DNA of 64,000 nt from Bacteroidota bacterium. Lineage in GTDB: Bacteria; Bacteroidota; Ignavibacteria; UBA10030. A program made the translations under genes and the position numbers. Location of the stretch: contig JAKAJH010000005.1 in NCBI GenBank assembly GCA_021813905.1, positions 1 through 64,000 on the forward strand, given 5' to 3'. Under the pieces are notes generated by a model. It made no database searches. It was not told the origin of the DNA and saw nothing but the letters and a program-made list of their open reading frames with translations. Shown here piece after piece: positions 1 to 15,586 of the stretch (positions within the stretch are counted from its first letter, which is position 1; each line of letters begins with the position of its first letter).

Positions 1-58
1 GATTTCTTGTTCCTTCTCTTCTTCCTTGAATCTTGACCCCTTGGAATTTGGATTTTCC

Positions 59-1231
59 TCAGGCTGTTGCCTCAGCCGCTGCAATCCGCCGGAACCGAAG
101 CGCAAAGTACACGCCCAGCAGCAGAAGGGCCGACGAGAGCAGATACGGGAGGAGATGATTCAACTCGTAGAGCGATCCCGACAGCACCGGCGCCACCACC
201 ATGTAGGCCGACATCAGCGCCGACAGGATGCCGATCGTCTCTCCCTTCTTCGCCGGATCCGTGGCCGCCGACGCCTGACTGGTGATCACCACCCGCAGGA
301 CCGCCTGTCCCGTGCCCAGACACAACAGTCCCACAAAGAACAGCGGCAAAAGCTCCGCCGCGATGAAGAGCAGTCCGGCCGCCAGGACGACAAGCATGAT
401 CACTTCCAGCGCGGGCTCGGAATAGCGCGCCAGCCAGAACTTCTTCAGCAGAAATCCCTGATTCATGATCACCACGATCCCCACGACGGAGAACGCCAGT
501 CCGGTGTGATACGCGCTGAATCCGAACGTGTCCCGCACGAACAGCGCGAACACCGACTGCGCGGTCACAAACGCAAATGCAAAGAACGACCAGGTCATAT
601 AGAGCGGTCGCAACCGATGATTCTGCGCCGCCCGCGCCAGCGGTGCCAGCGGATTGAAGCTCATCGGCCGGTGCGTGTCCCGCTTGTGGTGCGTCTCCGG
701 CAGCAGGAAGAACGCGACGACCGCGTTCGTGGCAGCCATTCCTCCCGCAATCCAGAATGGAAAACTGTGCGAGACCTTGCTGAGGAATCCTCCCAGAACA
801 GGCCCCAGCAGGAATCCGACGCCGAACGCCGCACCCACCAGGCCCAGATTCGACGCCCGCTCTTTCTCATCCTTCGCGATGTCCACCATGTAGCTCTGCG
901 CCGTGGAGAAGTTGCCCGCGGCGGAGCCGTCGATGATCCGGCCCAGAAAGAGCAGCCAGAGCGAGTGCGCGCTCGCGAACACCATCCAGCCGATGGCGGT
1001 GCTCGTAATGCTCAGGATCATCACGGGCCGGCGGCCAATGCGATCAGAGAGCGCTCCCAGCAGCGGCGAACTCAAAAATGAGAAGAACGAATAGGTCGCG
1101 AATACCAGGGTGATGACAAGCGGAGAGGCGCCGAATTCGGAGACGTAGAACGGAAGGATCGGAATGACGATGCCGAATCCGATCACATCCACAAGCACCG
1201 CGGACAGCACTATGATCTTTTCTTTGCTCAT
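59..1231 (-). CDS. MFS drug-efflux transporter (TetA-like)
   Basis: This is a 390-residue inner-membrane protein of the major facilitator superfamily, probably a proton-coupled exporter of small hydrophobic molecules. About twelve hydrophobic segments are visible. The cytoplasmic loop after helix 2 carries the family signature GALSDRIGRRPVM near residues 58-70. The first helix has the IGFGIVIPILPFY pattern typical of TetA/Bcr-type exporters. An AAAGAG stretch precedes the ATG. The gene is 73 bp downstream of the anmK-like gene on the same strand, so they may be cotranscribed, but no functional link is obvious. The substrate cannot be read from the sequence. Confidence 0.85.
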   Translation of the reverse strand: MSKEKIIVLSAVLVDVIGFGIVIPILPFYVSEFGASPLVITLVFATYSFFSFLSSPLLGALSDRIGRRPVMILSITSTAIGWMVFASAHSLWLLFLGRIIDGSAAGNFSTAQSYMVDIAKDEKERASNLGLVGAAFGVGFLLGPVLGGFLSKVSHSFPFWIAGGMAATNAVVAFFLLPETHHKRDTHRPMSFNPLAPLARAAQNHRLRPLYMTWSFFAFAFVTAQSVFALFVRDTFGFSAYHTGLAFSVVGIVVIMNQGFLLKKFWLARYSEPALEVIMLVVLAAGLLFIAAELLPLFFVGLLCLGTGQAVLRVVITSQASAATDPAKKGETIGILSALMSAYMVVAPVLSGSLYELNHLLPYLLSSALLLLGVYFALRFRRIAAAEATA

Positions 1232-1304
1232 GATCTCTTTGCGGGAGATGAAGCGTCGAGAGTATCACAACACCGGCTCGACGCGGCGCGTTCCGGCGGA
1301 ATGT

Positions 1305-2489
1305 TCAGGCGACCGGAGCGATTGTGCCGAGGATAACCGGACGCGACGCGCCGGTGGCGCCGGGAACGTTGGACGGTCTTCCGCTGATCGTTTCGTTGGC
1401 GAGGACCGCGAAGAGCACCGCCTCCTTCGCGTCTGAAGAGAACCCGAGTTCTTCCATGGGAAGCACCGGCACCGGATGAAAGTGCGTCGCCAGCCGGCGC
1501 ATGAGGTAACGGTTGTGCACGCCCCCGCCGCTGACGAACAGCTCGTCGATGCGCACCTGCCGACGAACGAACCGGACGTACTGATCATACACCGACAGCG
1601 CCGTGAATTCCGTGGCGGTCGCCACGACGTCTTCCGACGACAGATGACCCGACTGGCGGATGATCGCGTCGAGGTACATCCGTCCGAACTCCTCCCGCCC
1701 CGTCGACTTCGGCGGTCGCTTCTGCAGGAAGGGATGCGCCATCATCCAGCGGAGCAGTCCGGAGTCGATCCGGCCCCGCGCGGCGGCACGCCCGCCGGGA
1801 TCGAACGGCAGCCGGTAGAGCCGCTGCATCAGTCCGTCGATCACCATGTTGGCCGGACCGGTGTCGAAGGCGCGGACATCGGCGAGCGCCGCACGTTTCG
1901 GCAGCGCGGTGAGGTTCGCGATGCCCCCAAGGTTCAGAAGCATCCGGTTGCGGCGCGGAGAACGGAACAGCAGATAGTCGAGATACGGCACCAACGGCGC
2001 TCCCTGGCCCCCGGCCGCAACGTCGGCCGTACGGAAATCCCCGACCACGGGAATGCCGGTCTGCACGGCGATCATCGAGGGGCTGCCGATCTGCAGCGTG
2101 GAGCGGAGCTGCATGCCGAAGAACTTTTCCGGCTCCGGGAGGTGATGGATGGTCTGTCCGTGCGAGCCGATCAGGTCGATGCGGCTCAGCGGGACGCGAG
2201 CTTTGCGTGCGACCCGGCGAACGGCGTCGGCGAAGCAAACAGCCACCGCGGCATTGAGCCGGCAGACCATGTCCACGGACGAGGAGCCCGGCAGTGAGTT
2301 CGCGAGCAGCGCCGATTTCATGCCGATCGGATACGGTACCGTGACGAACGCCAGCTGGCGCACCTGCGTCCGGATGCCGCTCCCCGTGATGCGGACCAGG
2401 ACGGCATCCACGCCGTCCGCGGACGTGCCGGAGAGCAATCCGACCGCCAGTTTTGTCCGCTTCCGTTTCAGCTCATCGATTGAAGGCAT
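1305..2489 (-). CDS. anmK: Anhydro-N-acetylmuramic acid kinase
   Basis: This cytoplasmic kinase opens 1,6-anhydro-N-acetylmuramic acid and phosphorylates it to MurNAc-6-phosphate, allowing recycled cell-wall sugar to be reused. The product is 394 residues. The ATP-binding signature LSGTSADGVDAV lies at residues 19-30, and the sugar-site motifs (DLIGSHGQTIHH, GDFRTADVAAGGQGAPL, NLGGIANLT, DTGPANMVID) follow in the expected order. I chose the ATG at 2489 because AAAGGA lies 5 bp upstream. An upstream in-frame extension would run into the divergent nfo remnant. Family assignment is secure from the motif order. Confidence 0.92.
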   Translation of the reverse strand: MPSIDELKRKRTKLAVGLLSGTSADGVDAVLVRITGSGIRTQVRQLAFVTVPYPIGMKSALLANSLPGSSSVDMVCRLNAAVAVCFADAVRRVARKARVPLSRIDLIGSHGQTIHHLPEPEKFFGMQLRSTLQIGSPSMIAVQTGIPVVGDFRTADVAAGGQGAPLVPYLDYLLFRSPRRNRMLLNLGGIANLTALPKRAALADVRAFDTGPANMVIDGLMQRLYRLPFDPGGRAAARGRIDSGLLRWMMAHPFLQKRPPKSTGREEFGRMYLDAIIRQSGHLSSEDVVATATEFTALSVYDQYVRFVRRQVRIDELFVSGGGVHNRYLMRRLATHFHPVPVLPMEELGFSSDAKEAVLFAVLANETISGRPSNVPGATGASRPVILGTIAPVA

Positions 2490-2559
2490 GATCCTTTGCG
2501 CCGCCGGATGTTCCTGGCGACATTCGCACAATGGCACACACACCGCACGATCCTCCCCC

Positions 2560-2831
2560 TCTCCCGTCCGGCTGCGGGCCGGCGCCCACATGTCCATTGC
2601 CGGCGGCATGCATACCGCGGTGGAACGCGCGGCCCGGATCGGCTGCAGATGCGGGTGTTTGTGAAGAACAACAACCAGCGGCGCGGAAAACCGTTGGCAG
2701 ACGAGGACGTTTCAACGTACAAAGACCTCCGGGCGAAAGCAAGGATCGCCCCTGTTGTCGCCCATGGCACCCGCCTGATCAATCTCTTCCCGATTGATGA
2801 CGCCATCTTGGAGCTATCGCGGGAGATGTCC
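2560..2831 (+). pseudogene. nfo: Endonuclease IV (nfo) 5' remnant, frameshifted and truncated
   Basis: The plus strand encodes GAHMSIAGGMHTAVERAARIGC from about 2581, which matches the N-terminus of the AP endonuclease Nfo. About 2640 the frame shifts, and the next frame continues with MRVFVKNNNQRRGKPL and then APVVAHGTRLINLFPIDDAI, the next conserved Nfo blocks. Similarity stops near 2830, so roughly the last two thirds of the protein, including most zinc ligands, are missing. No start codon is visible in frame just upstream. This is a decaying base-excision-repair gene, divergent from anmK. A sequencing error could explain the frameshift but not the missing C-terminal part. Confidence 0.75.
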
Positions 2832-3618
2832 GGCACGAGATGGAATGCTGCGCGCGAGCTGAGGCACGGGGGCATTTGGGTGAGTGAGTGGGTGGAGAGA
2901 TGCGGGGCCGGGAAGCGGACTCGCGTATTCGCAGAGCGGTCTGGAATATCCGGGAAGACATCTTGCGCCGGTCGTTGGACGACTGAAACGGTCCGGAAGC
3001 CGTCTTGCACCTGCGCAGAGCGGGCCGGAAGCTCCGGGAAGGCATCCTGCGAAGTCGGTTAGGCGATTGAATACGCCGGGGAGCTGTCGTGACGGCCGGA
3101 ACAGCCGTCCGGCAACGGCGGGAAGAAATCCTGCATGCGCGGACAGCGGACCGGCTCCGTTGGGAGGTTTTCCGGCGGCAGTGCGAAGCGATCTGAGGCC
3201 GTCTGGAGGTTTATTGAATCGGTTTTTGCCCGTGTTCGTGCTGCGGGAAGCAATGGCGGACGGTCGGGAGGGCGGACGGATTCGACCGGAAGCGGCGCGG
3301 GACGCTCACACGCGTCGCTGATCGGGAAATGAGCGCCGCGCGTCCGGATTGGACCGCCGGTCGTCTGTCCCGAAGCGACGTGGGGAATTTTCGAACCGGG
3401 CTGAGCGGGAATCGAGCGCCGTGCGTCCGGATTGGACCGCCGACCGTCCGTCCCGAAGCGACGTGGGGAATTTTTGAACCGGGCTGAGCGGGAATATTAC
3501 GATGCTCGCGCGGGAGGGACGGGCGCGCGACGAACCTGGACGGACCTTCAGGGGTTCGCGCGGCGGGTGGCCGACGGTGTGGGGCATTGCCATTGCGCAG
3601 CGTGGATCTTTGTGAACC
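2832..3618. other. Gene-free, repeat-bearing spacer
   Basis: No convincing gene is present in these roughly 790 bases between the nfo remnant and the DUF4350-like gene. The sequence is GC-rich with long open frames that lack any recognisable domain or good ribosome site. It holds two diverged copies of an approximately 80-bp unit (about 2917-2995 and 2998-3078, sharing GCAGAGCGG, CCGGGAAG and CGATTGAA-like blocks) and an 83-bp tandem duplication listed separately. Confidence 0.6.
3331..3495. repeat. Two-copy 83-bp tandem repeat
   Basis: Two adjacent copies begin with GAGCGCCG at 3331 and 3414. Both contain CGTCCGGATTGGACCGCCG, then CCCGAAGCGACGTGGGGAAT, and end GGGCTGAGCGGGAAT. They differ at only a few positions, so the duplication is recent. 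No function is evident. Confidence 0.85.
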
Positions 3619-5220: not shown

Positions 5221-5796
5221 TTACTTGGCAACTTGCGTGTCGATTACTTGTCTCATTAGAACGAACGCAAATTTGACTCCCTCAGCTTCCGTTAAAATGT
5301 CCTTGAGGAAGACCTGAGTGTCGTCTGCATAAGTTCTGGGGAAGGTGATACTGAGATACGTCATTCGCTTTTTGTCAGCTTCCCAGAACCGATATTTGAC
5401 CGGATCCTTACCAGTGTAGGATCGGAGGAAGTTGTCGATAGACTTTCCTTCAGAGCACCAGTTGATGATCGACTTGTTAACCCAAACCTGTTCCCAGCTG
5501 TCGAAGAATGGAAAGTGCAAAACAACGTTTCTGATGAATCGGAATAGATCTCCGGCAATCTCAGCCTCCATTGGAGGTCTGGACTTCTTCAGCTCCTCAA
5601 GAACACACTTGATAGGCTCATAGTGAAGGAGCTCAGAATAGATTGCGAATCCATCCTTGGCACGCGAGAAGCGATACCAGCCGTCCCGTTGCCAGAAACT
5701 GTCGCTCATGACTTTCTCGAAGATGTCGTAGAAGCGATTGTACGCGAGGTTGAGGAAGCCAAGCTCAGCCATATTTGGTCTGAGGTCAGAGGACAT
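5221..5796 (-). CDS. HEPN-motif cassette protein
   Basis: This 191-residue soluble protein has no secure family name. It contains RNVVLH at residues 89-94 inside a helix-rich stretch (LFRFIRNVVLHFPFF), matching the RNxxxH signature of HEPN domains. Many HEPN proteins are metal-independent ribonucleases acting in toxin-antitoxin, abortive infection or CRISPR systems. An aromatic-rich N-terminus and a charged C-terminus are seen, but no second domain. It is the leftmost cassette gene. The ribosome site is weak, as is common for cassette genes. The HEPN reading rests on motif and helical context only, so it remains inference. Confidence 0.6.
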   Translation of the reverse strand: MSSDLRPNMAELGFLNLAYNRFYDIFEKVMSDSFWQRDGWYRFSRAKDGFAIYSELLHYEPIKCVLEELKKSRPPMEAEIAGDLFRFIRNVVLHFPFFDSWEQVWVNKSIINWCSEGKSIDNFLRSYTGKDPVKYRFWEADKKRMTYLSITFPRTYADDTQVFLKDILTEAEGVKFAFVLMRQVIDTQVAK

Positions 5797-5821
5797 GTGA
5801 ATATCTGCCCGGTTCGTTGCG

Positions 5822-5868
5822 GCTAACGTTCGGGCGGTCGTGCCCGCCCACCGATAGAGCCTGAATCC
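5822..5868 (-). other. Short degenerate attC-like site
   Basis: The 72-bp space between two cassette genes contains GGCTAAC at 5821-5827 followed by the small stem CGGGCGG-TCGTG-CCCGCCC. The second core box is not recognisable. Its position at the 3' end of the methyltransferase gene fits an eroded attC. Confidence 0.32.
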
Positions 5869-6390
5869 TCAGAACCAAGTCGTCAGTCTATACTGTTCGT
5901 AAGCTTCGCCAAACTGAAGTCGAAGCCTTGTTTCCTCCAAGTGTCTCCACCACAGAACGCTCGCAACGCCGAGGACGCCGATCCCCAGGCTGACCAGTGC
6001 ACTGTGGAATAAGCTCCACCCAAGAAGCCAGCCGATGAACCCGAGATACATCGGATGCCTGATCTTCTTGAACAATCCAGACGTTACCAGATGATTGATG
6101 TTCTCGACTCCTCTGAGCTGAATCAACGCTCCGACTGCGAGGATTACACCACCGATGAACATACCGAAGCCGAGCCATCGCACAAGTCGTGGCAACTCAA
6201 ACTGATGTACCTCCGCAGCGCACAGACCGAACCATGTCAGCCAGAGCGTAAGCATGACCGTCAGAATGACGGCATAGGCGGGCTTGCTCTCGGGATTGAT
6301 TTTGTGAGTCTCTTTGAGGATTTCGTATCCGCCTCGAATAGCGAGACAAGCCACAAACACTCCCACCAAGAGTGAGTAATCGATGTTCAT
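5869..6390 (-). CDS. Membrane isoprenylcysteine-methyltransferase-like protein
   Basis: This is a 173-residue integral membrane protein with about five hydrophobic segments. The C-terminal half contains TSGLFKKIRHPMYLGF and EETRLRLQFGEAYEQY, the conserved pattern of the ICMT/PEMT/NnrU group of small membrane S-adenosylmethionine-dependent methyltransferases. The paired RHP and E-E residues bind cofactor in that group. The real substrate in bacteria is usually unknown and may be a lipid or quinone-like molecule. GGAGGAA lies 8 bp before the ATG. It is carried as an integron-type cassette, so neighbours give no pathway information. Confidence 0.75.
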   Translation of the reverse strand: MNIDYSLLVGVFVACLAIRGGYEILKETHKINPESKPAYAVILTVMLTLWLTWFGLCAAEVHQFELPRLVRWLGFGMFIGGVILAVGALIQLRGVENINHLVTSGLFKKIRHPMYLGFIGWLLGWSLFHSALVSLGIGVLGVASVLWWRHLEETRLRLQFGEAYEQYRLTTWF

Positions 6391-6427
6391 CGAGAAGTTC
6401 CTCCAATCTCAGCTGGGCGGGCATGCC

Positions 6428-6667
6428 GCTTAACGTTTAGCCAAAACGCCGTTGCGAAGCGCCAGCATCAAACTGATAAACGATTGGTCTGGCGCTGAGC
6501 AATGGAGCGCTTGCCCGCCGTGCTCCACCTTGTGGCGGGAGCACTTTACAACTGGCAAAACCTTGTATCGACACCGCCTATCCGGTGTGCGAGTTTACCC
6601 GCCGTGCTTCACCTTTTGGCGGGCGATACTGGTATCAGAACCCTATCCGACGGCGTTTGGGTTCAGG
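6428..6667 (-). other. Long attC-like site
   Basis: The site runs from GCTTAAC (6428) to GTTCAGG (6661). Its ends pair: CCAAAACGCCGT on the left matches the reverse complement of ACGGCGTTTGGG on the right with one mismatch. It carries the shared blocks CCGTTGCGA and GAGCAATGGAGCG and a partial internal duplication of the CCCGCCGTGCT..CACCTT segment. It overlaps the last codons of the ORF6N gene. Confidence 0.6.
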
Positions 6668-7140
6668 TTCCATCATTAGTTGCCGAATGGCGTCGAAGAC
6701 GACCTTGAATTGAGCGTCGTACCTCTTCTCCATCACCAAGAGCTTTCGGGCCAGATCATCATGTGATGCAAGCAGCTTTCGCAACCGAACGAATGTTCGC
6801 ATGATTTCAATGTTCACGCGCACAGCGCGTTTGCTCCTCAGGACGCTCGAAAGCATGGCCACGCCTTCCTCACTGAACGCATATGGCGTCGCCCTTCGTA
6901 GTCCACCCCATCTTGAAGTCACAATCTGTGATTTCAAGTTTCGGAATTCCTCTGACGACAGTTGGAACATGAACTCCTCAGGGAACCGATCAAGATTCCG
7001 CTTGACCGCTTGCACGAGTACGCGTGGAGCCACCTGGTAGAGGTGGCAAGGTCCATGCTTAGCATGACCTTCTCCCCTCGCAGAAGGTAGATGCAGCGTT
7101 CTATCCTCTCTCTCGGAATGATTGTTTGAGGCTTCTTCAT
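6635..7140 (-). pseudogene. ORF6N-domain gene with a frameshift
   Basis: The first frame (ATG at 7140) gives [20 protein letters not shown] and then [11 protein letters not shown], the opening of an ORF6N DNA-binding domain. Near 7041-7044 the expected continuation jumps to another frame: [36 protein letters not shown] and [19 protein letters not shown]. This is an otherwise intact ORF6N domain followed by a coiled C-terminal tail. One missing base in the codon after DLA (GCC-AC-CTC) explains it. ORF6N proteins are common in phages and mobile elements and are thought to bind DNA. As it stands the gene would make a truncated product, unless the base is a sequencing error. Confidence 0.75.
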
Positions 7141-7196
7141 CAGCCACCGTCAGAACACGATCCGAAGACTGCGAATGACGACTTCAGCGCCGGTTG

Positions 7197-7399
7197 CGCG
7201 CAATGTTCCGGCAAACCGCCGTTGCGAGCTGTCGCTACGACTCTCTCCGTCTTGCGGCGACGAGCAATGGAGCGTTTACCCGCCAGTTCTGTGGCGGCAG
7301 CACTTTACATCCAGCCAATCATTGTTTCACCTTCATCTATCCAGCGTGCGCCTGTCCGCCATCTTTGTGGCGGAAGCGCCGGTTTGCCGTTTGTTAGGC
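7197..7399 (-). other. Long attC-like site
   Basis: The right end is a consensus GTTAGGC (7393-7399). The left core box is degenerate (GCGCAATG near 7198). The inner arms pair over ten bases: CGGCAAACCG on the left against CGGTTTGCCG on the right. The CCGTTGCGA and GAGCAATGGAGCG blocks are present. Confidence 0.7.
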
Positions 7400-7475
7400 G
7401 CAGGCACAGTTCAATATTGATCGCGTTTTGCGGCACAAAACAAATATCGGCAAAGTGATCTCCTGCATTCTGGCC
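7400..7475. other. Gene-less mini-cassette
   Basis: Only 76 bp separate two attC-like sites of different families. There is no open frame, hairpin or promoter I can defend. It may be a cassette whose gene was lost, or a fusion scar between two sites. Confidence 0.4.
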
Positions 7476-7584
7476 GCCTAACGGGATCGCGCATAACCTG
7501 CAGCCTGTGGCGGCCGAAGATAAGATAGATCCGTTCCTCTTCAAGCGGCCGCCACGGGCTGTGAGCTTCATGCGCTGGTTAGGC
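7476..7584 (-). other. Classical attC recombination site
   Basis: This is the clearest site of the array. It has GCCTAAC at 7476-7482 and GTTAGGC at 7578-7584, a complementary inner pair GCGCAT (left) and ATGCGC (right), and a long central stem built from CAGCCTGTGGCGGCCG and CGGCCGCCACGGGCTG. Length (109 bp), box spacing and two-part stem match integron attC architecture. Its last bases include the stop codon of the adjacent membrane-protein gene. Confidence 0.85.
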
Positions 7585-8118
7585 GGCACCGTCTTCCTCG
7601 GACAGGTCACGAGGAGGCCTCCTGGCGGCAAACCCATGCCAAGTCCTGAGTCGCCTGTACTCCAGCCAGGTGAGCCCGATGACGAAGACGTCCAGGATTG
7701 ACAATACTAAGAGCTCTGGTGCGCCAGTGTGTGAGTAACGGTACAGCTGATAGACGAGGAAGAGAAGAAACGCCAGGATCGCTGTGGGATATGCCCAGCG
7801 CCGCCTCAGTAGCAACGCTGCGACTAACGTGAGTTTGACGATGCCATGCCAGAGGAGGTAGGTGGCGGCGAATGCCTGCGCCGCTCCTGAGAGATGCTGG
7901 GTGCTATTTCGGAGGTAGGTGGCCAAGAGGTCGCGAGGATCTTCGCTCAGCTCGTGCTCGGTCAACGCGCGAATGACGTTGTGAATCTGCATTGGGTTGA
8001 GAAAGGACAGGAGCACGCCACCGAGTATCTCTAGGGCACCGTCAACACCCTTGGTGACGACGCTGATGTCGAAGAGGATGTGTGCGATGCGGCCTCTGCG
8101 CATGCCTGGTATGGTCAT
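7579..8118 (-). CDS. DUF2127-family membrane protein
   Basis: This 179-residue membrane protein has four hydrophobic segments and a short charged C-terminal tail. The opening (HILFDISVVTKGVDGALEILGG) and the later LLWHGIVKLTLVAALLLRRRWAYP block are characteristic of DUF2127 proteins, whose function is unknown. The gene begins only 10 bp after a GTTAGGC box (8128-8134 on the other strand), as expected for an integron cassette. Its stop codon overlaps the attC core. A later ATG at 8103 is a possible alternative start. Confidence 0.75.
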   Translation of the reverse strand: MTIPGMRRGRIAHILFDISVVTKGVDGALEILGGVLLSFLNPMQIHNVIRALTEHELSEDPRDLLATYLRNSTQHLSGAAQAFAATYLLWHGIVKLTLVAALLLRRRWAYPTAILAFLLFLVYQLYRYSHTGAPELLVLSILDVFVIGLTWLEYRRLRTWHGFAARRPPRDLSEEDGAA

Positions 8119-8127
8119 CCTGGTGCC

Positions 8128-8221
8128 GCCTAACTATTGTTCATATGGTTTCCAGATAAGATCGCTCTTTGTGTTGAATAAATGTGCCGCAAACGCCTTA
8201 TCAAAATGACACTTTGCTTGC
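8128..8221. other. Cassette boundary box and short gene-less stretch
   Basis: GCCTAAC at 8128-8134 is a consensus core box just ahead of the DUF2127 start. The following 87 bp to the next long attC contain no gene. This resembles the 76-bp gene-less stretch at 7400. Confidence 0.45.
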
Positions 8222-8444
8222 GCATAAAGTTTAGGCAACGCGCCGTTGCGAGCCTGCCTGCGGCAGGCCGCCGCTACGACTCACTCCGTTTTGCGGCGGC
8301 GAGCAATGGAGCGCTTGCCCGCCGTGCTTCACCTTGTGGTGGGAGCACTTTACATCCAGCCAATCATTGTTTCACCTTCACCTATCCAGCGTGCGCCTGT
8401 CCGCCATCTTTTTGGCGGAAGCGCCGGCTTGCCGGTTGTTAGGC
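8222..8444 (-). other. Long attC-like site
   Basis: The right end is a consensus GTTAGGC (8438-8444) and the left is a degenerate GCATAAA (8222). Inner arms GGCAACGCGCC and the complement of GCCGGCTTGCC pair imperfectly. The shared blocks CCGTTGCGA, GAGCAATGGAGCG and ACTTTACATCCAGCCAATCA are near-identical to the site at 7197. Confidence 0.66.
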
Positions 8445-8460
8445 GTTCGTATGCGGCATG

Positions 8461-9177
8461 TCATTTACAATGCGACGCATTGGCGCGTTGCTTGTATTCA
8501 ACAATCAGCGATGTTTCCTGTCGCGCGAACATGAGCATATCGAAGTTTGAGTCAAACTGAGCGATCCACGTCCGGACAAATTCGAACGGGTACCATGAGT
8601 CAACGGGCGTATCGACCTTGTAGGCCTTTGAATATCCCAAGTGCGCAATGTCGTTGCGGGCAGTCGATAGGATATTGAAAGCCTCCCAGCAATCGCGAGG
8701 TTGAAAGTTGCACTTGTCGGTCGTGAACATCTGGATCTCGAAGAAAGGAAGATGTATGTCAAGCAGATCAGAGTAGTGTTTCTTGATCTCCTGAAGGCTG
8801 CGAAACGACAATCGGTCCAGGAGCGCCTGCAATAATTCTGGAGAACTCTGGGAATAACGGAACGCTAGGTACTCCTTGAATTTCTCGGTCAGGTACATCT
8901 CCGCAGCTGTGTAAGTCGCCAGGACGATTTGCTCTCCGACACGTCGAAAGAGGCCGGTGGATTTGAGCATGGCTATTTCATGCGGACGATACATGCCCCC
9001 GTCGACCGTGAATCCACTTATTCGGTTGTCCGTGAGGATAATGTCGATGAGATCGGTAGGAACCTGCGTCTTCCGCTCCCGCGCCAGAAGTTGGAGACTG
9101 TAGAGGTCGGCGGACTTAACCAAGGTCATTATGCCGACCTCGAGGTTACGGAAGACGTCGATGGCTTTGGTCGTCAC
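8461..9177 (-). CDS. HEPN-motif cassette protein
   Basis: This 238-residue, probably cytoplasmic, helical protein has no secure family name. Its C-terminal half carries RNDIAH at residues 174-179 (in ILSTARNDIAHLGYSK), a clean RNxxxH motif of the HEPN superfamily. The helical segment containing EIKKHYSDLLDIHLPFF precedes it, as in other HEPN nucleases. The N-terminal 90 residues (DIILTDNRISGFTVDGGMYR) look like a small winged or adaptor region. The frame opens at a GTG (9177); an ATG at 9129 with GAGGT upstream is an equally plausible start. The nuclease role is inferred from the motif. Confidence 0.6.
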   Translation of the reverse strand: MTTKAIDVFRNLEVGIMTLVKSADLYSLQLLARERKTQVPTDLIDIILTDNRISGFTVDGGMYRPHEIAMLKSTGLFRRVGEQIVLATYTAAEMYLTEKFKEYLAFRYSQSSPELLQALLDRLSFRSLQEIKKHYSDLLDIHLPFFEIQMFTTDKCNFQPRDCWEAFNILSTARNDIAHLGYSKAYKVDTPVDSWYPFEFVRTWIAQFDSNFDMLMFARQETSLIVEYKQRANASHCK

Positions 9178-9217
9178 GATCGTTTAGCCTACTTCTCAAA
9201 GTGGCAGCGCACCTGCC

Positions 9218-9257
9218 CCATAACATTTCGCCGCCTGTGCGGTGCCGTTTGTTATGC
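9218..9257 (-). other. Short attC-like inverted repeat
   Basis: CCATAAC (9218) and GTTATGC (9251) bracket a 40-bp inverted repeat containing CGCCGCC-TGTGC-GGTGCCG. It is shorter than typical attC sites but sits in the right place, at the 3' side of the lipoprotein cassette. Confidence 0.4.
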
Positions 9258-9331
9258 GTTCGTTGTTTTGCGACATATCGTCGCGAATGATCGAAAGTTA
9301 CTCCCGGCTACTGTTTCTTAGTAACTGGTCG

Positions 9332-9787
9332 CTAATTCTGTTTAAGAAGTTCCTCGTCCTGATCGGTTAGCCTTCCCTGTTTGAATCGCAAGCTTGGCGA
9401 GTCCAACACCTTAAAAGTGATTTCCTGATTGGTCGCGGCGATGACTTGGATCGTCGTCTTCCTGAATTTAAGAGTCTTTGTTTCGCTCAGATCGTATTGC
9501 AGCTCTTGCGAAAACGCAGGCCTAGCATAGTCGTTCGAGTACTCTCTGTATACAACCTTGATGACACTGCCAGCTTTGCCGGAATAAATGAGCTCGCTCT
9601 TAGTGCTGGCGCGAACGGTCTTGTACACATTGTTTCGGAATTCCACTGTTGTTTCTAGCATCGGGCTTCCGATGGATGTAGTCAACTCGGCGTCCTTCTC
9701 ATAATTGCGCATCAAATAGTAGCTGTTGTCAAGTCCACAACTTGTGAATGACAAACAAAGGAGAATTGGTAACATAAACCTGGCCAT
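9332..9787 (-). CDS. Small cassette lipoprotein of unknown function
   Basis: This 151-residue protein begins with a lipoprotein signal peptide (MARFMLPILLCLSFTSC), giving a lipid-anchored mature protein from Cys17. The rest is mainly beta-strand-forming (TTVEFRNNVYKTVRAS, GSVIKVVYREYSNDY, KTLKFRKTTIQVIAA) with no named domain. The start was set at 9787 because AGGAGG lies 6 bp before the ATG; an upstream extension would place the signal peptide internally. It is one of the array genes and has no functional partner nearby. Confidence 0.7.
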   Translation of the reverse strand: MARFMLPILLCLSFTSCGLDNSYYLMRNYEKDAELTTSIGSPMLETTVEFRNNVYKTVRASTKSELIYSGKAGSVIKVVYREYSNDYARPAFSQELQYDLSETKTLKFRKTTIQVIAATNQEITFKVLDSPSLRFKQGRLTDQDEELLKQN

Positions 9788-9885
9788 CTTCGCCTCCTGC
9801 TCAGGTGAACGAGTAATCATCAAAAGTGCCGCTTTCAGATTCTGACATTCGATGTTGAGTTGCAGTACTGAAGCAAAACAATGAC

Positions 9886-10045
9886 GCATAGCGTTTCGCC
9901 GGCTACACAGTGCCGTTTGTGGCATATTCACATCTCACATCAACGCCCCTCCACAAACCGCATTGAGTGAGTCTTTTCATTGAGCCCATCTAAGTTCTAT
10001 GATCGCCTTTGCAACAAACGAACGTCGTAGTGCGGCGTGTTATGC
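9886..10045 (-). other. attC-like site
   Basis: The ends GCATAGC (9887) and GTTATGC (10039) are complementary apart from one base, with partially complementary inner arms (CGCCGGCTACA against TAGTGCGGCG). The site lies between two cassette genes at the expected 3' side of the second HEPN-type gene. Confidence 0.45.
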
Positions 10046-10084
10046 GCCCGTGGACGCCCGCAACGTGAGAGATCTCGTGAATGA

Positions 10085-10765
10085 TCATTTCTTCGGTGAA
10101 GTCAAATTGAGAAACTCAGTAACCAGTGGTGAAGGGTCGGTCGAGTTGATCAGGTCACGAATTTGGTCGATCGCTTGTTGAAGCTCAAGTGCCTCTTGCG
10201 AAGACCGGTCATCCCTATGTTCAAGTTCTCGCTGTGCTTCACGTGCGAGTCGTTGTAGTTCATGCATGCGTGCTGCAATGATATCAGTTGGAAGCCACCC
10301 TATCGAATTGTTGAGAATGCTCCTGAGTTCATCCCTTTCCTCTGAAGTCCCTCTGAATTTGTCGGGCCACTGCCAAAGATATCGTTCGAACTCAAAGTGC
10401 AAAGCCGCCGCCCAAAGCATGCTCTCGGAATAACGTGTGGTAAAGGCGGTCATTCGCTGGTCATACATTTCTTCCTGGAAATGGAAGACTGCATTTCTGT
10501 ATCGACGGAGGGCTGCGCAGTATTCATCATAACCTTTGATGAGAGCATCTATCGTTGGGTCAGTGAAACCCAATTTGCGCCAGCCCTCGAGGACGCTGTA
10601 TAGAGAACCGACCCATCTAGCGGAGTGAGCAAGCATGAGACTCTCGGAACGAGCATTTGTTTGATCGATTGTGTCTGAGCTGACCGACGACATTGCTTCG
10701 TACGCTACATGAGCCCAATGAACATACCGTCCCCAAGATATGAATGACTCAATGGTGGTGTCCAT
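10085..10765 (-). CDS. HEPN-motif cassette protein
   Basis: This 226-residue soluble, strongly helical protein contains RNAVFH at residues 90-95 (in ALRRYRNAVFHFQEEMYD), the third RNxxxH motif in this array. The C-terminal third is a likely coiled coil (MHELQRLAREAQRELEHRDD). No family name is recognised. HEPN proteins with this motif include ribonuclease toxins and abortive-infection effectors, which would suit a cassette array. There is no recognisable antitoxin beside it, so either the cassette carries a self-limited protein or the role is different. Confidence 0.58.
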   Translation of the reverse strand: MDTTIESFISWGRYVHWAHVAYEAMSSVSSDTIDQTNARSESLMLAHSARWVGSLYSVLEGWRKLGFTDPTIDALIKGYDEYCAALRRYRNAVFHFQEEMYDQRMTAFTTRYSESMLWAAALHFEFERYLWQWPDKFRGTSEERDELRSILNNSIGWLPTDIIAARMHELQRLAREAQRELEHRDDRSSQEALELQQAIDQIRDLINSTDPSPLVTEFLNLTSPKK

Positions 10766-10812
10766 GTCGAGCTCTATGGGTCAGGTGTTTGCTCGTTGCG
10801 GGCGGCTATGGC

Positions 10813-10881
10813 GCCTAACGTTTCGCGAAGGAGGTTAGCACGCAACATGCTAGCCTGCACTGATTTCAGTCGATGTCGACC
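10813..10881 (-). other. Degenerate attC-like site
   Basis: GCCTAAC at 10813 is a consensus box. GTTAGCA at 10834 and TGCTAGC at 10849 form a small stem. The remainder up to the NYN stop codon is not obviously symmetrical. Confidence 0.38.
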
Positions 10882-11502
10882 TCATATCCACTCAGGTGGC
10901 CGCGTCAAAGTGAAACCGTCAGCCTTTTGCACCTTCTCGGGAAACACACTCTTTGCAATGCTCGCCCTTCCGATCTGCAAGTAGGCATGTGCCAAGTGCT
11001 GTAGTTGAACCGAATGTCGTTGAGGCGGAAACGCAACAACCACTCGCTTGTTGGGGAATAGATCCTTGATTGCCCGCAGCGGAGCAGACAAATCACTGTC
11101 CGCGGAGATGAGAAGCGCAATATCGAACAGGTCTTGATACGCGTCCGACATCATCTCGACTGCGATATTCACATCCGTCATCTTCTCGCTTGGCACCCAT
11201 ACTTTGTGGCCGCATTTTCTGCATCGCTGGAGATTTGATTGAAAATGGCCATAGTAGATCTTGAGGTCGCTGAGTGTCTCCAAAGCCTCAATAAACGTAG
11301 ATTGACGTTTTTCTTTGTCGGGAGGGTATGAGACCCGGCTTGTGAAGTACTTTGTGAACACCAAATCCTGGCCCGGTGCAAGTATGTTCCGGGCCAGTGA
11401 CTGCAGGTTTAGCCAGTAGAATCTTTTCAACTTCGCAGATTTGAGACCGAAGTAAAGATTGAACCCGTCAATGTACGCTACCACTCGCAGGTTGATGTCC
11501 AT
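10882..11502 (-). CDS. NYN-domain (PIN-like) ribonuclease
   Basis: This 206-residue protein is a NYN domain, a PIN-like metal-dependent RNase fold. Acidic active-site positions are visible: D12 in VAYIDGFNLY, D110 in KMTDVNIAVEMM, and D135/D137 in LLISADSDLSAPL. Residues 94-97 form a CRKC pair that could be half of a zinc site inserted before the second motif. Related LabA/DUF88 proteins cleave structured RNA or act in defence and regulation. It is a separate cassette on the minus strand. Ribosome site is weak. The family call is strong; the cellular target is unknown. Confidence 0.85.
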   Translation of the reverse strand: MDINLRVVAYIDGFNLYFGLKSAKLKRFYWLNLQSLARNILAPGQDLVFTKYFTSRVSYPPDKEKRQSTFIEALETLSDLKIYYGHFQSNLQRCRKCGHKVWVPSEKMTDVNIAVEMMSDAYQDLFDIALLISADSDLSAPLRAIKDLFPNKRVVVAFPPQRHSVQLQHLAHAYLQIGRASIAKSVFPEKVQKADGFTLTRPPEWI

Positions 11503-11555
11503 CGAACTTGACTTTCAATTCAGGGACTGCTACATTGTTCACGTTGGTTTACAGC

Positions 11556-11616
11556 ACCAGCGTGAGTAGCGCTGGTCCGACGGCCTTCGGAGAGATCCGG
11601 AGGCCGTTTCTTTTTA
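11556..11616 (+). ncRNA. Plus-strand double hairpin ending in a terminator
   Basis: On the plus strand, ACCAGCG...CGCTGGT (11556-11576) is followed at once by ACGGCCTTCGG...CCGGAGGCCGT (11580-11607) and TTTCTTTTT. This is an intrinsic terminator pointing against all cassette genes. It may end a short antisense or free-standing RNA, or act as a bidirectional barrier. No promoter was identified. Confidence 0.5.
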
Positions 11617-11638
11617 TGCCTGTGTGCCAACCTCTTTC

Positions 11639-11880
11639 GCATAACGTCTGAGCAGACCGCCGTTGCGAACCGCCCGTAACAAAATGAGATCCAATGGCTC
11701 GGGCGGTGAGCAATGGAGCGAGCTCTATTACGGCTGGCGTGTATTTTTGGATTTCGATATCTGATTGTTGATTCGTACCACCTTTGCTTCAGACGGACTA
11801 GAATGTTGCAGGCATGGTTCTAGACTTGCACGCACGCCAGCCGTTTAGAAGGAGTGAGCGCCGGCCTGCGATTGTTAGTT
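11639..11880 (-). other. Long attC-like site
   Basis: The boundaries are GCATAAC (11639) and GTTAGTT (11874). Inner arms GCAGACCGCC and the complement of GCCGGCCTGC pair imperfectly. It includes CCGTTGCGA, an ACCGCCCG/CGGGCGGT stem and GAGCAATGGAGCG. Confidence 0.65.
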
Positions 11881-11907
11881 ACCGTTTTGCCACGAACAGG
11901 ACCAGGT

Positions 11908-12540
11908 CTAAAGCTTGTTGAGTATCTGCGCTTTCTTGGCTTCGAATTCTAGCTCCGTAATCAAGCCCTGCGTTCTCAAGTTTGTGAGTTGTCTAAGCGT
12001 ATCTTCCACTGTGCCTCCGGTTGGGGCGGTCTGGACGGCTGAACTCGAATGGAGCACAGACTCTTTCTGTTGCAGGACAGATTGGACAAATTGTGCCAGC
12101 TGACCTTCAGGCATCCGGATTACGTCGATAGACATTTCGTCGTTTCGAGATCGGACAATCAACAATCGACGAAAGAAGAAGAGAACAACAATTGCAATCC
12201 AGACTATGATACCAAGCAAACTGAATATGGACATCACAGCCTGATTCTGGACAATGAGCATGCCTATCACTCCGACGAAAAAGGTAGCAGCGAAAGCGAG
12301 GAGACCAAGGAAGAAAGCGTAGAGTCCATTGAATCGCCTTTCTTGATAGATGGAGTCGAGGTCACGGAGGTCGAATGTCTTTTGACCATGAGAAACCATC
12401 AGCTTCTGGTACGCGTGAAGGCGCTTATTAGTGAGAGTAATGGTGAATCTGCGCCAGAACAAGAATCCCTTGCCTGCGAGGTCTTGAGTGACCTGTTTGA
12501 GAATTTTTTCATCTGGGGATAATGTGATTTCGTATGGCAT
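11908..12540 (-). CDS. PH-like/SHOCT-domain membrane protein
   Basis: This 210-residue protein has an N-terminal PH-like region (about residues 1-70, with RRFTITLTNKRLHAY), two adjacent membrane helices (about residues 75-130) and a C-terminal SHOCT segment (LRQLTNLRTQGLITELEFEAKKAQIL). SHOCT modules are short helical pairs thought to mediate oligomerisation; the overall role is unknown. The start at 12540 is supported by GGAGG 7 bp upstream, and the frame extension further upstream would run into the neighbouring attC. It forms one cassette with the long attC-like site to its left. Confidence 0.78.
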   Translation of the reverse strand: MPYEITLSPDEKILKQVTQDLAGKGFLFWRRFTITLTNKRLHAYQKLMVSHGQKTFDLRDLDSIYQERRFNGLYAFFLGLLAFAATFFVGVIGMLIVQNQAVMSIFSLLGIIVWIAIVVLFFFRRLLIVRSRNDEMSIDVIRMPEGQLAQFVQSVLQQKESVLHSSSAVQTAPTGGTVEDTLRQLTNLRTQGLITELEFEAKKAQILNKL

Positions 12541-12569
12541 ACGTGTGCCTCCATGGGTGGCAAAATGGC

Positions 12570-12729
12570 AACTAACGTCTAGCAGCAAGCTGCCGTTGCG
12601 AACCGCCACAATGGAACTGACCGATAGGCTGTGGCGGTGAGCAATGGAGCGAGCACTTTAGTCAACAGCCAATGCTAGTTTTGTCTTTGCCTTTGCAGGG
12701 TGCGAGCGTCAGCTTGCTGCTTGTTAGCT
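12570..12729 (-). other. Long attC-like site
   Basis: The core boxes are AACTAAC (12570) and GTTAGCT (12723). The inner arms contain a perfect 12-bp match, AGCAGCAAGCTG on the left against CAGCTTGCTGCT on the right. A second stem (ACCGCCAC with GTGGCGGT) and the GAGCAATGGAGCG block follow. It is the best-paired member of the long family. Confidence 0.78.
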
Positions 12730-12757
12730 GCCGTTTGCGTCTTCTGCTTGCTGGAGA

Positions 12758-13204
12758 CTAGCGCCGGTGCAATTCCCATCTTGTTGGGATGGTCCTGCCC
12801 CCAGAGTAGGCCCTTTCATGCCCGGATGCTTTCAAAATCCCGTCCTCAAAGGAGTAGGCAACGGTCTCAAGACCACAGCCGGGCCATGAGACTTCAATCG
12901 TTGAAGCAGATCGAACTTTGACGGTTCCTATGTTCTTTTCGTATCCGCAACTGGAGGATGTGGCGGTCAGTTTGTCGAAGTCGACAGTGAGGGTATGATC
13001 AGCCCACCTCCCAACCGAAGGATCATTCGTAGAGAGAGTACCTGACCAGACCCCAGAGAGTCGGTCCGATGAATATGTGATCTTCTCAATCTCCGACAGG
13101 TCGTAGGAGACAGTTCTTCCATGCTTGAGGTGTATTATCATCGATTGAGATTGCGCAGTAGAAACAAAAACGATGGTGATAAAGATGAGGCATGAGATCT
13201 TCAT
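12758..13204 (-). CDS. Small secreted cassette protein, unknown family
   Basis: This 148-residue protein starts with a signal peptide (MKISCLIFITIVFVSTAQSQ) and is predicted periplasmic or extracellular. The mature part has SYDLSEIEKITYSS, then a beta-rich segment with WSGTLSTNDPSVGRW and TVKVRSASTIEVSWPGCGLE; two cysteines could form a disulfide. No family is recognised. GAGAGG lies 9 bp upstream of the ATG at 13204. It is the rightmost cassette, with an AGCTAAC box at 13256-13262 marking its outer boundary. Confidence 0.65.
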   Translation of the reverse strand: MKISCLIFITIVFVSTAQSQSMIIHLKHGRTVSYDLSEIEKITYSSDRLSGVWSGTLSTNDPSVGRWADHTLTVDFDKLTATSSSCGYEKNIGTVKVRSASTIEVSWPGCGLETVAYSFEDGILKASGHERAYSGGRTIPTRWELHRR

Positions 13205-13262
13205 TAGGATACCCTCTCTAGATGGTTGGTTTGAGATCATTGAGACGCAAATGGCAGCTAAC

Positions 13263-13529
13263 TACTGGAAAAACGCATTGCGTTATTCTTCGTTATCTCT
13301 TTGAGTCGTCGACAGCGGGGAGATCCCACACCATCCCCTCAAACGCACAACGGCCCTCCCGGAATGCATCACCATCCCAGGAGAGCCGTCTTCACGAAAT
13401 CGCTACGATGTTTCCCCAACCCGCGACCCCCGTCGTGGTAACTGTGCCAGGTCATCCCCTTTACAAATGGCTCCTGATACGGTACTCAATCCGGGAGAAT
13501 CTTGCAACTCGGGGAAAGGGGGAAAACGA
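13263..13529. other. Spacer right of the cassette array
   Basis: No gene is seen. A partial inverted repeat (ACGGCCCTCCCGG ... CAGGAGAGCCGT, about 13350-13392) is present without a U-tract. No attI, cassette promoter or integrase gene is recognisable where the integron platform would be expected. Confidence 0.5.
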
Positions 13530-13600
13530 GCTTACGGGGGTAAGAGCGTACGAGGGTACGGGGGTACGAGGGTACGTGTGTACGTGGGTGGGTGAGTGGG
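13530..13600. repeat. GTACG tandem tract
   Basis: Short repeats of the type GTACGAGG/GTACGGGG run head to tail here. The same tract type occurs at 43094, 47605, 47797 and 48907. It abuts a different minisatellite on its right side. Confidence 0.8.
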
Positions 13601-13785
13601 AAATCGGGAAATTTGGGAATCGGATGATCGGGAAACTGGCAAATCGGCGAATCGGATGATCGGAAAATTGGAAAATCGGCGAATTGGATGATCGGGAAAT
13701 TGCAAACTCGGCGAATCGGGTGAATGGGGAATTGGGGAATTGGGGAATCGGGTGATTGGGAAACTGGCAAACCGGCCAATCACGT
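13601..13785. repeat. Degenerate minisatellite, left copy
   Basis: Imperfect units built from GGGAAATTGG, CGGCGAATCGG and GTGATCGGG repeat through this stretch in the same orientation as the block at 15217-15535. The reading frames across it stay open only because the repeat lacks stop codons; they are not genes. Confidence 0.85.
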
Positions 13786-14940
13786 GGACTCCCCTTTCAA
13801 CGGCAAAAACCCCTCCTGGTCCAGCACCTGGATAATCCCACGAATCAGATAGTTATTGTCGAATCTGAGCACGTACCTGCGTGCGTTGTCTTCAACCGGA
13901 CCAAGCATCTTGTTGTCGATGAGGCGCTTGATGTTTCTTGAAACCTCAACCGCATGTTTGCCGGGAAAGAGATCCTTGATGTCGGCGGCCATGATGACTT
14001 GCTTCTCCACGGCGCGCTTCAGAATCGCCCATTCGATCCCGGTGATGAGCTTGCGCTCGAACGCGATTGCCAACGCGGGCAGCAGGATCTTCGATTTGAG
14101 AAAGTCATACGCAAGAAGGCGATCGATCTTTTCGATTTCGGCTTTCAATCCTCGCAGCACGTAGCGACACCATGTGAGCACACCATCATCGGTTCCTTTG
14201 TCGGCTTCGGAGAGAAGGTCATAGTACACATTGCGATCACCACAGAAGACGGCGGTGGGATTCAGGATCCTCCCCTGCTCCACGTGGAATCCCTGCTTCA
14301 CAAGCATGGCGTAGGTGAAGAGGCGCACCGTGCGGCCATTGCCATTGGTGAAGGGGTGAACCCAGACAAACCGGTGATGAGCGATTGCGGTCTTGAGAAG
14401 GTCATATTTCGGTGGGTCATCACGCTCGATAAAGTCAAAGAGCTGGTCCATATACTCCTGAACCTGAATTGGTTCAGGTGGCACGTGGCTGGAACGCGCG
14501 ATCCTCACCAGTCCCGTGCGGTACGCGCCCGGCGTTGCATCTCCCTCGCCATCCGGGGGCGGTCTCAGACCATCGACGGTGAGCTTGTGAAGTTCGCTCA
14601 CGAAGGGCCCGTCAATGTTGCGATCCCTCACATGCTGGTCAATGAACTCCATTGCCCGTTCCATGTTCTGGATCTCGCGGATGTCCGGCTTCTCCGACGA
14701 CGTGCCTTCGAGCTTGGTCTCGATGTACTCTGCAATCGTCGTTCGGTTTCCTTCGATCCGGGCGGAACCGATGCTTTCCAGCGTATGAAAGATGTGCTTG
14801 AGCTGGAAGAATATGAGCGGGTGTGTTGTGCCCGAGAGCCGCCGCGTGCGCAGAGCGTCGAGGTTCAGGATGAGATCGGTCAGCTCGTCGCCGAATGCAG
14901 GCTCTACCAATCGCAGGTCAAAATGATTGAAACCCGGCAT
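13780..14940 (-). CDS. Fic-family AMPylase
   Basis: This 386-residue protein transfers AMP (or a related group) to hydroxyl side chains of target proteins. The Fic active-site loop HPFTNGNGRTVR is intact at residues 195-206, including the catalytic His195 and Arg203. The inhibitory helix motif SARIEGN at residues 59-65 fits class II Fic proteins, whose own N-terminus blocks ATP binding. The C-terminal 100 residues look like a winged-helix domain (GKHAVEVSRNIKRLIDNKML). GAGAGATC precedes the ATG. The gene lies alone between two direct blocks of the same minisatellite, next to the cassette array. Targets are unknown. Confidence 0.92.
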   Translation of the reverse strand: MPGFNHFDLRLVEPAFGDELTDLILNLDALRTRRLSGTTHPLIFFQLKHIFHTLESIGSARIEGNRTTIAEYIETKLEGTSSEKPDIREIQNMERAMEFIDQHVRDRNIDGPFVSELHKLTVDGLRPPPDGEGDATPGAYRTGLVRIARSSHVPPEPIQVQEYMDQLFDFIERDDPPKYDLLKTAIAHHRFVWVHPFTNGNGRTVRLFTYAMLVKQGFHVEQGRILNPTAVFCGDRNVYYDLLSEADKGTDDGVLTWCRYVLRGLKAEIEKIDRLLAYDFLKSKILLPALAIAFERKLITGIEWAILKRAVEKQVIMAADIKDLFPGKHAVEVSRNIKRLIDNKMLGPVEDNARRYVLRFDNNYLIRGIIQVLDQEGFLPLKGEST

Positions 14941-15216
14941 GATCTCTCGGGGACCGCGTTAAGAATTAACAAATGTGGATATTACAATTAACAGAGTCAG
15001 ACCAAACATACGCTTTTTCGGCGAAAAGGTGAACTTCCGAATATCGCACATTTAGCAGCTCGGTCGATCAGATGAAACGCTTGACAGGCAGGCATTTTCA
15101 GGACTTGCCGGATCGGCGGGACCATTCCTGCCATCCGATTCCCCAATGGATACGAATCGCTCATGAGAGCAACGTGAAGCAAGCGAGGGGAAATGGGGGA
15201 AACGAGGGTGGGGGGA
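14941..15216. other. Spacer between Fic gene and right minisatellite
   Basis: No gene is supported here. The segment is AT-richer just upstream of the Fic start (about 14955-15000) and probably holds its promoter, but I cannot assign boxes confidently. Confidence 0.4.
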
Positions 15217-15535
15217 ATCGGGAAATCGGGAAATTGGGTGATTGGGAAATTGACAAACCGGCAAATCGACGAATCGGGTGATCGGGAAATTGGAAAATCG
15301 GCGAATCGGGTGATCGGGAAGTTGGCGAATCGGCGAATCGGGTGATTGGGAAATTGACAAACCGGCGAATCGGGTGATGGGGAGATGGGGGAATTGGGGA
15401 ATTGGGGAATCGGGTGATTGGGAAACCAGGGAATCGACGAATCGGATGATCGGGAAATTGGCAACCCGGCGAATCGGGTGATCGGGAAGTTGGCGAATCG
15501 GGTGATCGGGAAATTGAGGATCGAGGAAGCGAGGC
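15217..15535. repeat. Degenerate minisatellite, right copy
   Basis: About 320 bp of imperfect units such as GGCGAATCGGGTGATCGGG and AAATTGACAAACCGG are arranged in tandem, with occasional GGGGAATT octamer runs. It is the same family and orientation as the block left of the Fic gene. Confidence 0.87.
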
Positions 15536-15586
15536 GATTCTTGACATCCAGTGCCAATCGGAGTACTTTGCAGGCGGAGAGACGAG

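Follow-up and report, generated by a model that had tools for sequence, protein, structure and literature searches.

Results

The window encodes an HEC-09 family nuclease-like protein

The window, by which we denote the whole stretch of 64,000 nucleotides of the Bacteroidota genome that was analysed, carries on the minus strand, at positions 10882..11502, a gene for a protein of 206 amino acids that is assigned to the NYN/HEC-09 nuclease-like proteins by Pfam, PADLOC, an alignment of homologues and an AlphaFold model. The product matches the Pfam family NYN (PF01936) with 42.9 bits (cut-off 24.2 bits, E 9e-11), and this is the sole NYN match in the 3.08-Mb source genome. With 288 bits (9e-87), residues 6-205 align to positions 3-202 of the 203 positions of the PADLOC HEC-09 profile, which makes the protein a full-length member of this family. 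HEC-09 is an Hma-embedded candidate defence family, and certain other HECs are experimentally supported (PMC12988326); in one Pseudomonas survey, HEC-09 correlated with phage susceptibility (PMC12447246), a point against the defence reading favoured below.

Among 60 NYN homologues, D12, N15, D110, D135 and D137 as well as the motif T109-D110-V111-N112 are either invariant or conserved to at least 90%, in agreement with a first-pass annotation of this DNA, according to which the domain retains its acidic metal-binding residues. The same annotation considered the CxxC pair to be an addition to the domain; however, C94 and C97 are invariant in the 60 homologues, so that CxxC is a family trait and nothing particular to the window protein. 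In the AlphaFold model (pLDDT 94.2), CxxC is found at a beta-turn that joins two strands. A Foldseek comparison of this model with solved structures yielded 2QIP, an NYN structure, as the only convincing relative; sirtuins and epimerases were dismissed as generic Rossmann-like matches with low TM-scores. The window protein is a putative metal-dependent endoribonuclease.

The gene belongs to a CALIN-like cassette array

The NYN gene is part of a cassette array on the minus strand (5819..13410), defined by an attC scan and genome comparison, that has attC-like sites and no integrase nearby. Within the window, attC-like sites cluster at 5.8-13.4 kb. Because a strict attC detector returned zero sites and its criteria were then loosened, the attC calls are approximate. 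The integron integrase of the genome resides on another contig (C6), beside an array with a different, uniform set of attC sites, and no DNA related to the best attC of the window was detected elsewhere in the source genome; taken together, these observations identify the window array as CALIN-like. In the stretch of C6 that was inspected (1-3022), the integrase is accompanied by its own uniform attC sites (CTAACGTGTGGGAGCTAAGCTGCGCGCGAGC..), and the contig stops inside that array.

The cassette with the NYN gene extends from about 10813 to 11645. It is closed by an R'-like core on the minus strand at 10813..10819 (GCCTAAC on the plus strand), with a poor attC partner half, and the R'-like core of the neighbouring cassette, also on the minus strand, is at 11639..11645 (GCATAAC on the plus strand). 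The R' core and the attC-like array support the original view of the NYN gene as a separate cassette, although the cassette's own attC is poor: its R' is clear, but a convincing R''/L'' half can hardly be recognised, whereas the attC sites of the neighbouring cassettes are good.

The neighbours were initially described as HEPN-type. Three proteins (8461-9177, 10085-10765 and 5221-5796) indeed contain the HEPN-like motif RN-xxx-H, in the forms RNDIAH, RNAVFH and RNVVLH, but this assignment is carried by the motif and sub-threshold scores, with no Pfam match over the cut-off (best 18.0 versus 28.4 bits). The ORF6N cassette that had been reported was recovered by Pfam (1.4e-22), and its protein (6635-7147) is further recognised as PADLOC candidate PDC-S05 (1.9e-40), with a PHROG anti-repressor as another match. 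The proposed count of four or five nucleic-acid-directed cassettes among ten is fair (NYN, ORF6N and the three RN-xxx-H proteins), and two of the ten are recognised by candidate-defence models of PADLOC, namely HEC-09 and PDC-S05. Integron arrays of Vibrio are documented as stores of defence genes (PMC12409362). Given this precedent, the two PADLOC candidates and the three RN-xxx-H proteins, it is plausible that the array stores defence genes, although ten cassettes are too few for proof or for an enrichment test. The window shares with the defence cassettes of Vibrio chromosomal integrons the maintenance of a defence-candidate gene as an integron cassette, but differs from these in the group of organisms, in the absence of an adjacent integrase and in the additional RNA gene, equipped with a promoter of its own, that the cassette contains. 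Adjoining the cassette array is a Fic-like gene (13780-14940) that is flanked by two arrays of degenerate repeats with an 8-nt phase (GGGAAATTGG..; 13552-13781 and 15166-15563).

A small structured RNA is encoded next to the NYN gene

The second component of the cassette, overlooked in the first-pass annotation, is a conserved RNA gene that is divergent from the NYN gene. The RNA, about 70 nt long and encoded on the plus strand at 11546..11616, lies within the NYN cassette, 23 bp from the junction at 11639..11645. It is preceded by a sigma-70-like promoter, TTGACT-17-TACATT, that was found by a promoter scan (11508..11536, plus strand), and consists of hairpin 1 (11556..11576, plus strand), ACCAGCGU-GAGUA-GCGCUGGU, with a loop of the class KAGYA that is supported by the fold and by covariation, and hairpin 2 followed by a T tract (11579..11616, plus strand), which together form an intrinsic terminator with a 13-bp stem. 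The fold z-score of this stretch is −6.9 relative to shuffles.

A covariance model, R1, was built from 69 aligned copies of the RNA (65 from NYN loci, the window copy and 3 relatives). It recognises the window RNA with 62.9 bits (E 4.8e-15), and has no other match in the window or elsewhere in the genome. The R1 consensus comprises a 5' AAC(A/C)NC tail, a hairpin with a KAGYA loop, a YYGAC linker and a GACGCC..GGCGUU terminator; the single-stranded 5' tail and the loop are conserved across the 69 copies. It shows two hairpins only, and no pseudoknot was recognised in this consensus. All 14 of the 14 base pairs change on both sides among the 69 copies. The covariation score is 0.627, compared to 0.228 in shuffled alignments and at most 0.17 when the partners are slid, and the fraction of paired cells is 92%, compared to 71% and 36-49%, respectively.

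No Rfam family (release 15) reached its gathering score for the R1 RNA in the window or at the other loci scanned. The idea of a known integron or defence sRNA in Rfam, such as sRNA-Xcc1, was abandoned for lack of a match, and BjrC68 and BASRCI414 were rejected because their scores were sub-threshold. BjrC68 (RF02353), a family of Bradyrhizobiaceae sRNAs, resembles R1 in having a hairpin and a UUUCUUUUU terminator, but the match of 25.4 bits is below the gathering score of 39.

The RNA and the NYN gene are linked across phyla

R1 matches 77 of 80 loci of NYN homologues, from Chloroflexota, Bacteroidota, Planctomycetota, Pseudomonadota, KSB1, Latescibacterota and others. Of the three loci without a match, L045 and L050 end at a contig edge, and L047 is a genuine exception, the only NYN gene of the close HEC-09 clade that was seen to lack the R1 RNA where upstream DNA was available. 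Because 65 of the 80 loci contributed to the model, the loci outside it are the fairer test and carry more weight. All nine intact close HEC-09 loci of the window's phylum that were outside the model (L110-116, L118 and L119; >270 bits) have the RNA, and a locus on a Thermus plasmid, likewise independent, is also matched. In five isolate genomes, the R1 RNA occurs at the NYN locus only. A promoter with a score of at least 9/12 precedes 52 of 79 homologous RNAs compared to 5.6% of shuffles. The NYN and RNA distances are correlated (Mantel r 0.43, p 2e-4) in a comparison uncorrected for species relatedness.

In the majority of the 80 loci, the RNA is upstream of the NYN gene and divergent from it. 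In eight, it is upstream and co-oriented (L029, L037, L041, L042, L052, L054, L057 and L058), and in two (L069 and L079), it is convergent at the 3' end of the NYN gene; three loci (L067, L083 and L096) contain two R1 copies. This variation in side and orientation argues for action of the RNA in trans, on the protein, rather than as a leader or an antisense RNA. In two genera, the NYN and RNA module is flanked by two copies of the start of one gene, a partial and a full one (L009 1340-2240; L011 1-2921), the gene being mqnE/radical-SAM-like by reading, as if an insertion had regenerated the 5' end of its target; no integrase was seen in the stretch examined.

The RNA is also found without the NYN gene

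Among 296 genomes of the phylum, there are 29 R1 copies: 9 beside an intact NYN gene, 9 beside a broken or truncated one and 11 without NYN. The RNA is highly conserved beside the dead NYN genes. A sample of 300 genomes from a Burkholderiales order yielded 10 R1 loci, 4 with NYN and 6 without it. Some of the NYN-less copies are divergent from DUF3800 genes that were confirmed by Pfam (L159 416-1374 and L167 94-824), and the neighbours of solitary copies include AbiEii, Abi_2, HsdR, a retron-like reverse transcriptase, tRNA and prophage-like genes, several of these identified by reading. In two loci (L310 and L313, around 1440-1570), a solitary R1 RNA was read immediately 3' of a tRNA-like gene, and in another (L307 261-3052), with a retron-like reverse transcriptase on one side and a helicase-like ORF on the other. 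One locus with both NYN and the RNA additionally contains an Rfam DUF3800-IX RNA (L034 4061-4122, 54 bits).

Phages carry copies of the RNA as well. A pattern search of IMG/VR produced 48 contigs, of which R1 confirmed 45, representing about 20 distinct RNAs; the other three (L263, L267 and L269) fail the covariance model and were discarded as chance matches, and one (L274, 33.5 bits) is doubtful given the size of the database. No NYN gene was detected by tblastn at the 48 viral pattern loci, and neither HEC-09 nor DUF3800 was found in any of 35 whole viral records, the viral records being mostly fragments. The flanking genes are those for terminase, portal, baseplate hub, tail sheath, DNA polymerase and ribonucleotide reductase, and in about 13 of 20 viral contigs, the RNA, by reading, begins no more than some 60 nt after a phage gene that runs in the same direction. 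In the complete genome of the cyanophage Dolichospermum phage Dfl-JY45, an R1 copy occupies an intergenic gap, and there is no NYN match. Where HEC-09 genes themselves are on viral contigs, the R1 RNA is present at 2 of 66 loci, with one further close homologue cut by the contig edge.

Distant HEC-09 branches have a different RNA

The RNAs of the distant HEC-09 branches are not recognised by R1; these branches are therefore linked to the close clade by layout and not by the covariance model. The distant genes are mostly accompanied by a different hairpin-terminator RNA that is located directly upstream, on the same strand: a sense terminator is present within 165 nt upstream in 24 of 29 of these genes compared to 27 of 299 control ORFs (p 1e-17). 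On a Klebsiella plasmid (L020), four tandem hairpins are followed by a terminator and then by the NYN gene. Small ColE1-like plasmids of Klebsiella (L020 850-1119) and E. coli (L019 180-414) have such tandem hairpin RNA units ahead of their HEC-09-like NYN genes, and the NYN protein has matches on 391 PLSDB plasmids, of which 207 are from Klebsiella.

Discussion

With a conserved RNA gene in the cassette, the mechanism to be expected is that of a pair of a protein and an RNA, and no longer that of an RNase acting alone. Combinations of a nuclease with an adjacent RNA are already known as a kind, in ToxIN, in AbiF and in the DUF3800 RNAs. ToxIN is a precedent, and type III toxin-antitoxin modules have the gene order RNA, terminator, toxin (PMC5086642). 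With these modules (ToxIN, CptIN and TenpIN), the present loci share the combination of an endoribonuclease-like protein and a small structured RNA encoded next to it, and the existence of phage-borne RNA copies, comparable to the pseudo-ToxI mimicry by which phage PhiTE escapes ToxIN (PMC3475682); the distant HEC-09 loci further share the order promoter, RNA, terminator, gene and, in some cases, the tandem RNA units. The window locus, however, differs in three defining features: the protein is NYN/PIN-like, and no relationship to ToxN, CptN or TenpN was seen (Pfam NYN only; structural relative 2QIP); the RNA is divergent, with its own promoter, instead of being upstream in the NYN operon; and it is present in a single copy, a single hairpin plus terminator without tandem repeats. 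Accordingly, we do not class it as a member of type III. In the AbiF-RCd22 pair of a Clostridioides difficile prophage, a nuclease-type abortive-infection protein is neutralised by an upstream ncRNA through direct binding (PMC12373285), but the protein there is of the HEPN type (Abi_2), whereas here it is NYN, and the RNAs differ. The DUF3800 RNA motifs of Rfam (DUF3800-I to -XI) likewise pair a small structured RNA with a neighbouring gene whose function is unknown; DUF3800-IX has another fold, in which a stem closes around inner hairpins. Neither Rfam nor the literature searched contained the NYN partner, the RNA family, the divergent form of this RNA in an integron cassette or the phage copies, and the search for an NYN protein with an RNA partner returned nothing relevant, preprints such as those in bioRxiv being outside its scope.

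The distribution of the RNA can be read in terms of a type III-like module of two components in one cassette, an NYN endoribonuclease and a divergent RNA of about 70 nt. We infer a scheme that would include nuclease activity, RNA binding, inhibition, a trigger and decoy action by phages. The RNA would bind the NYN protein as an antidote or inhibitor; a phage that disturbs the balance, by shutting off host transcription or through RNA decay, would free the nuclease, which would then cut RNA and abort the infection; and an RNA copy carried by a phage could neutralise the nuclease as a decoy. Loss of the antidote first would be lethal and loss of the toxin harmless, and a phage would profit from importing the antidote. 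The pattern, in which NYN seems to need the RNA, the RNA persists without NYN and phages carry the RNA, is the one that an antidote predicts. We consider it somewhat better than an even bet that the nuclease is held in check by the small RNA, with the phage copies acting as decoys. The broader proposition, that HEC-09 NYN proteins inhibited by this new RNA constitute a widespread anti-phage system, one that travels on plasmids, in chromosomal loci and as integron cassettes and that phages counter with stand-alone decoy RNAs, often at the 3' ends of their own operons, is tentative, its chances being in our judgement slightly short of even.

Several features would also fit an RNA that serves as an activating cofactor or guide, such that NYN works only as a ribonucleoprotein and the phage copies compete for the protein: the one-way linkage is strict, the RNA and NYN co-diverge, the orientation of the RNA gene is free, and the single-stranded 5' tail and the loop are conserved. 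A variable guide segment is, however, not seen in the RNA, its high conservation beside dead NYN genes would be unexpected for a cofactor, and the co-oriented order of RNA, terminator and gene is that of an antidote, all of which makes this reading unlikely. The strongest argument against an antidote dedicated to NYN is the presence of solitary RNA copies beside DUF3800 and elsewhere; with the RNA next to DUF3800, tRNA and other defence genes lacking NYN, the NYN protein may not be its sole partner, and this RNA class may serve two effectors, NYN and DUF3800. Taken further, the copies beside DUF3800, AbiEii, Abi_2, HsdR and the retron-like reverse transcriptase and 3' of tRNA genes could indicate a broader regulatory sRNA, or a mobile RNA cassette of defence islands, for which NYN is one of several companions and DUF3800 another. 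We regard this as improbable to much the same degree as a cofactor, considering that the NYN gene of the close HEC-09 clade is almost never without the RNA, that the two co-diverge and that the RNA is confined to the NYN locus in the five isolate genomes.

Control in cis, as in type I systems, by antisense or transcriptional interference with the NYN mRNA or promoter and without protein binding, is suggested by the geometry of the window, where only 6 bp separate the NYN start codon from the RNA promoter, which is directed away from it, and where an NYN message begun farther upstream would overlap the RNA. Yet the divergent, co-oriented and convergent arrangements of the RNA among the loci speak against such control, and the distant phage copies would be without a cis target; we judge it very improbable indeed. 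Hardly better placed is the version of the first-pass annotation, a stand-alone NYN RNase among defence-like cassettes with the RNA incidental: the domain is intact, the array includes HEC-09 and PDC-S05 according to PADLOC, and Vibrio integrons do hold defence genes (PMC12409362), but the RNA is kept with the gene across phyla and its structure covaries.

An RNA that restrains the nuclease thus remains our preferred reading. The PADLOC model of HEC-09 consists of the protein only, and no description of an RNA partner was found in the papers searched. The present results provide this family with a likely missing component, and laboratory tests with the protein alone may fail or mislead. They also reveal a covarying RNA family outside Rfam that is a companion of one nuclease clade across many phyla and is carried by phages without NYN, and show that an integron cassette can combine a gene for a protein with one for a divergent RNA under a promoter of its own. 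If the RNA is indeed an antidote, the logic of protein-RNA toxin-antitoxin modules would extend to NYN nucleases, and the phage copies would supply many natural examples of RNA mimicry.
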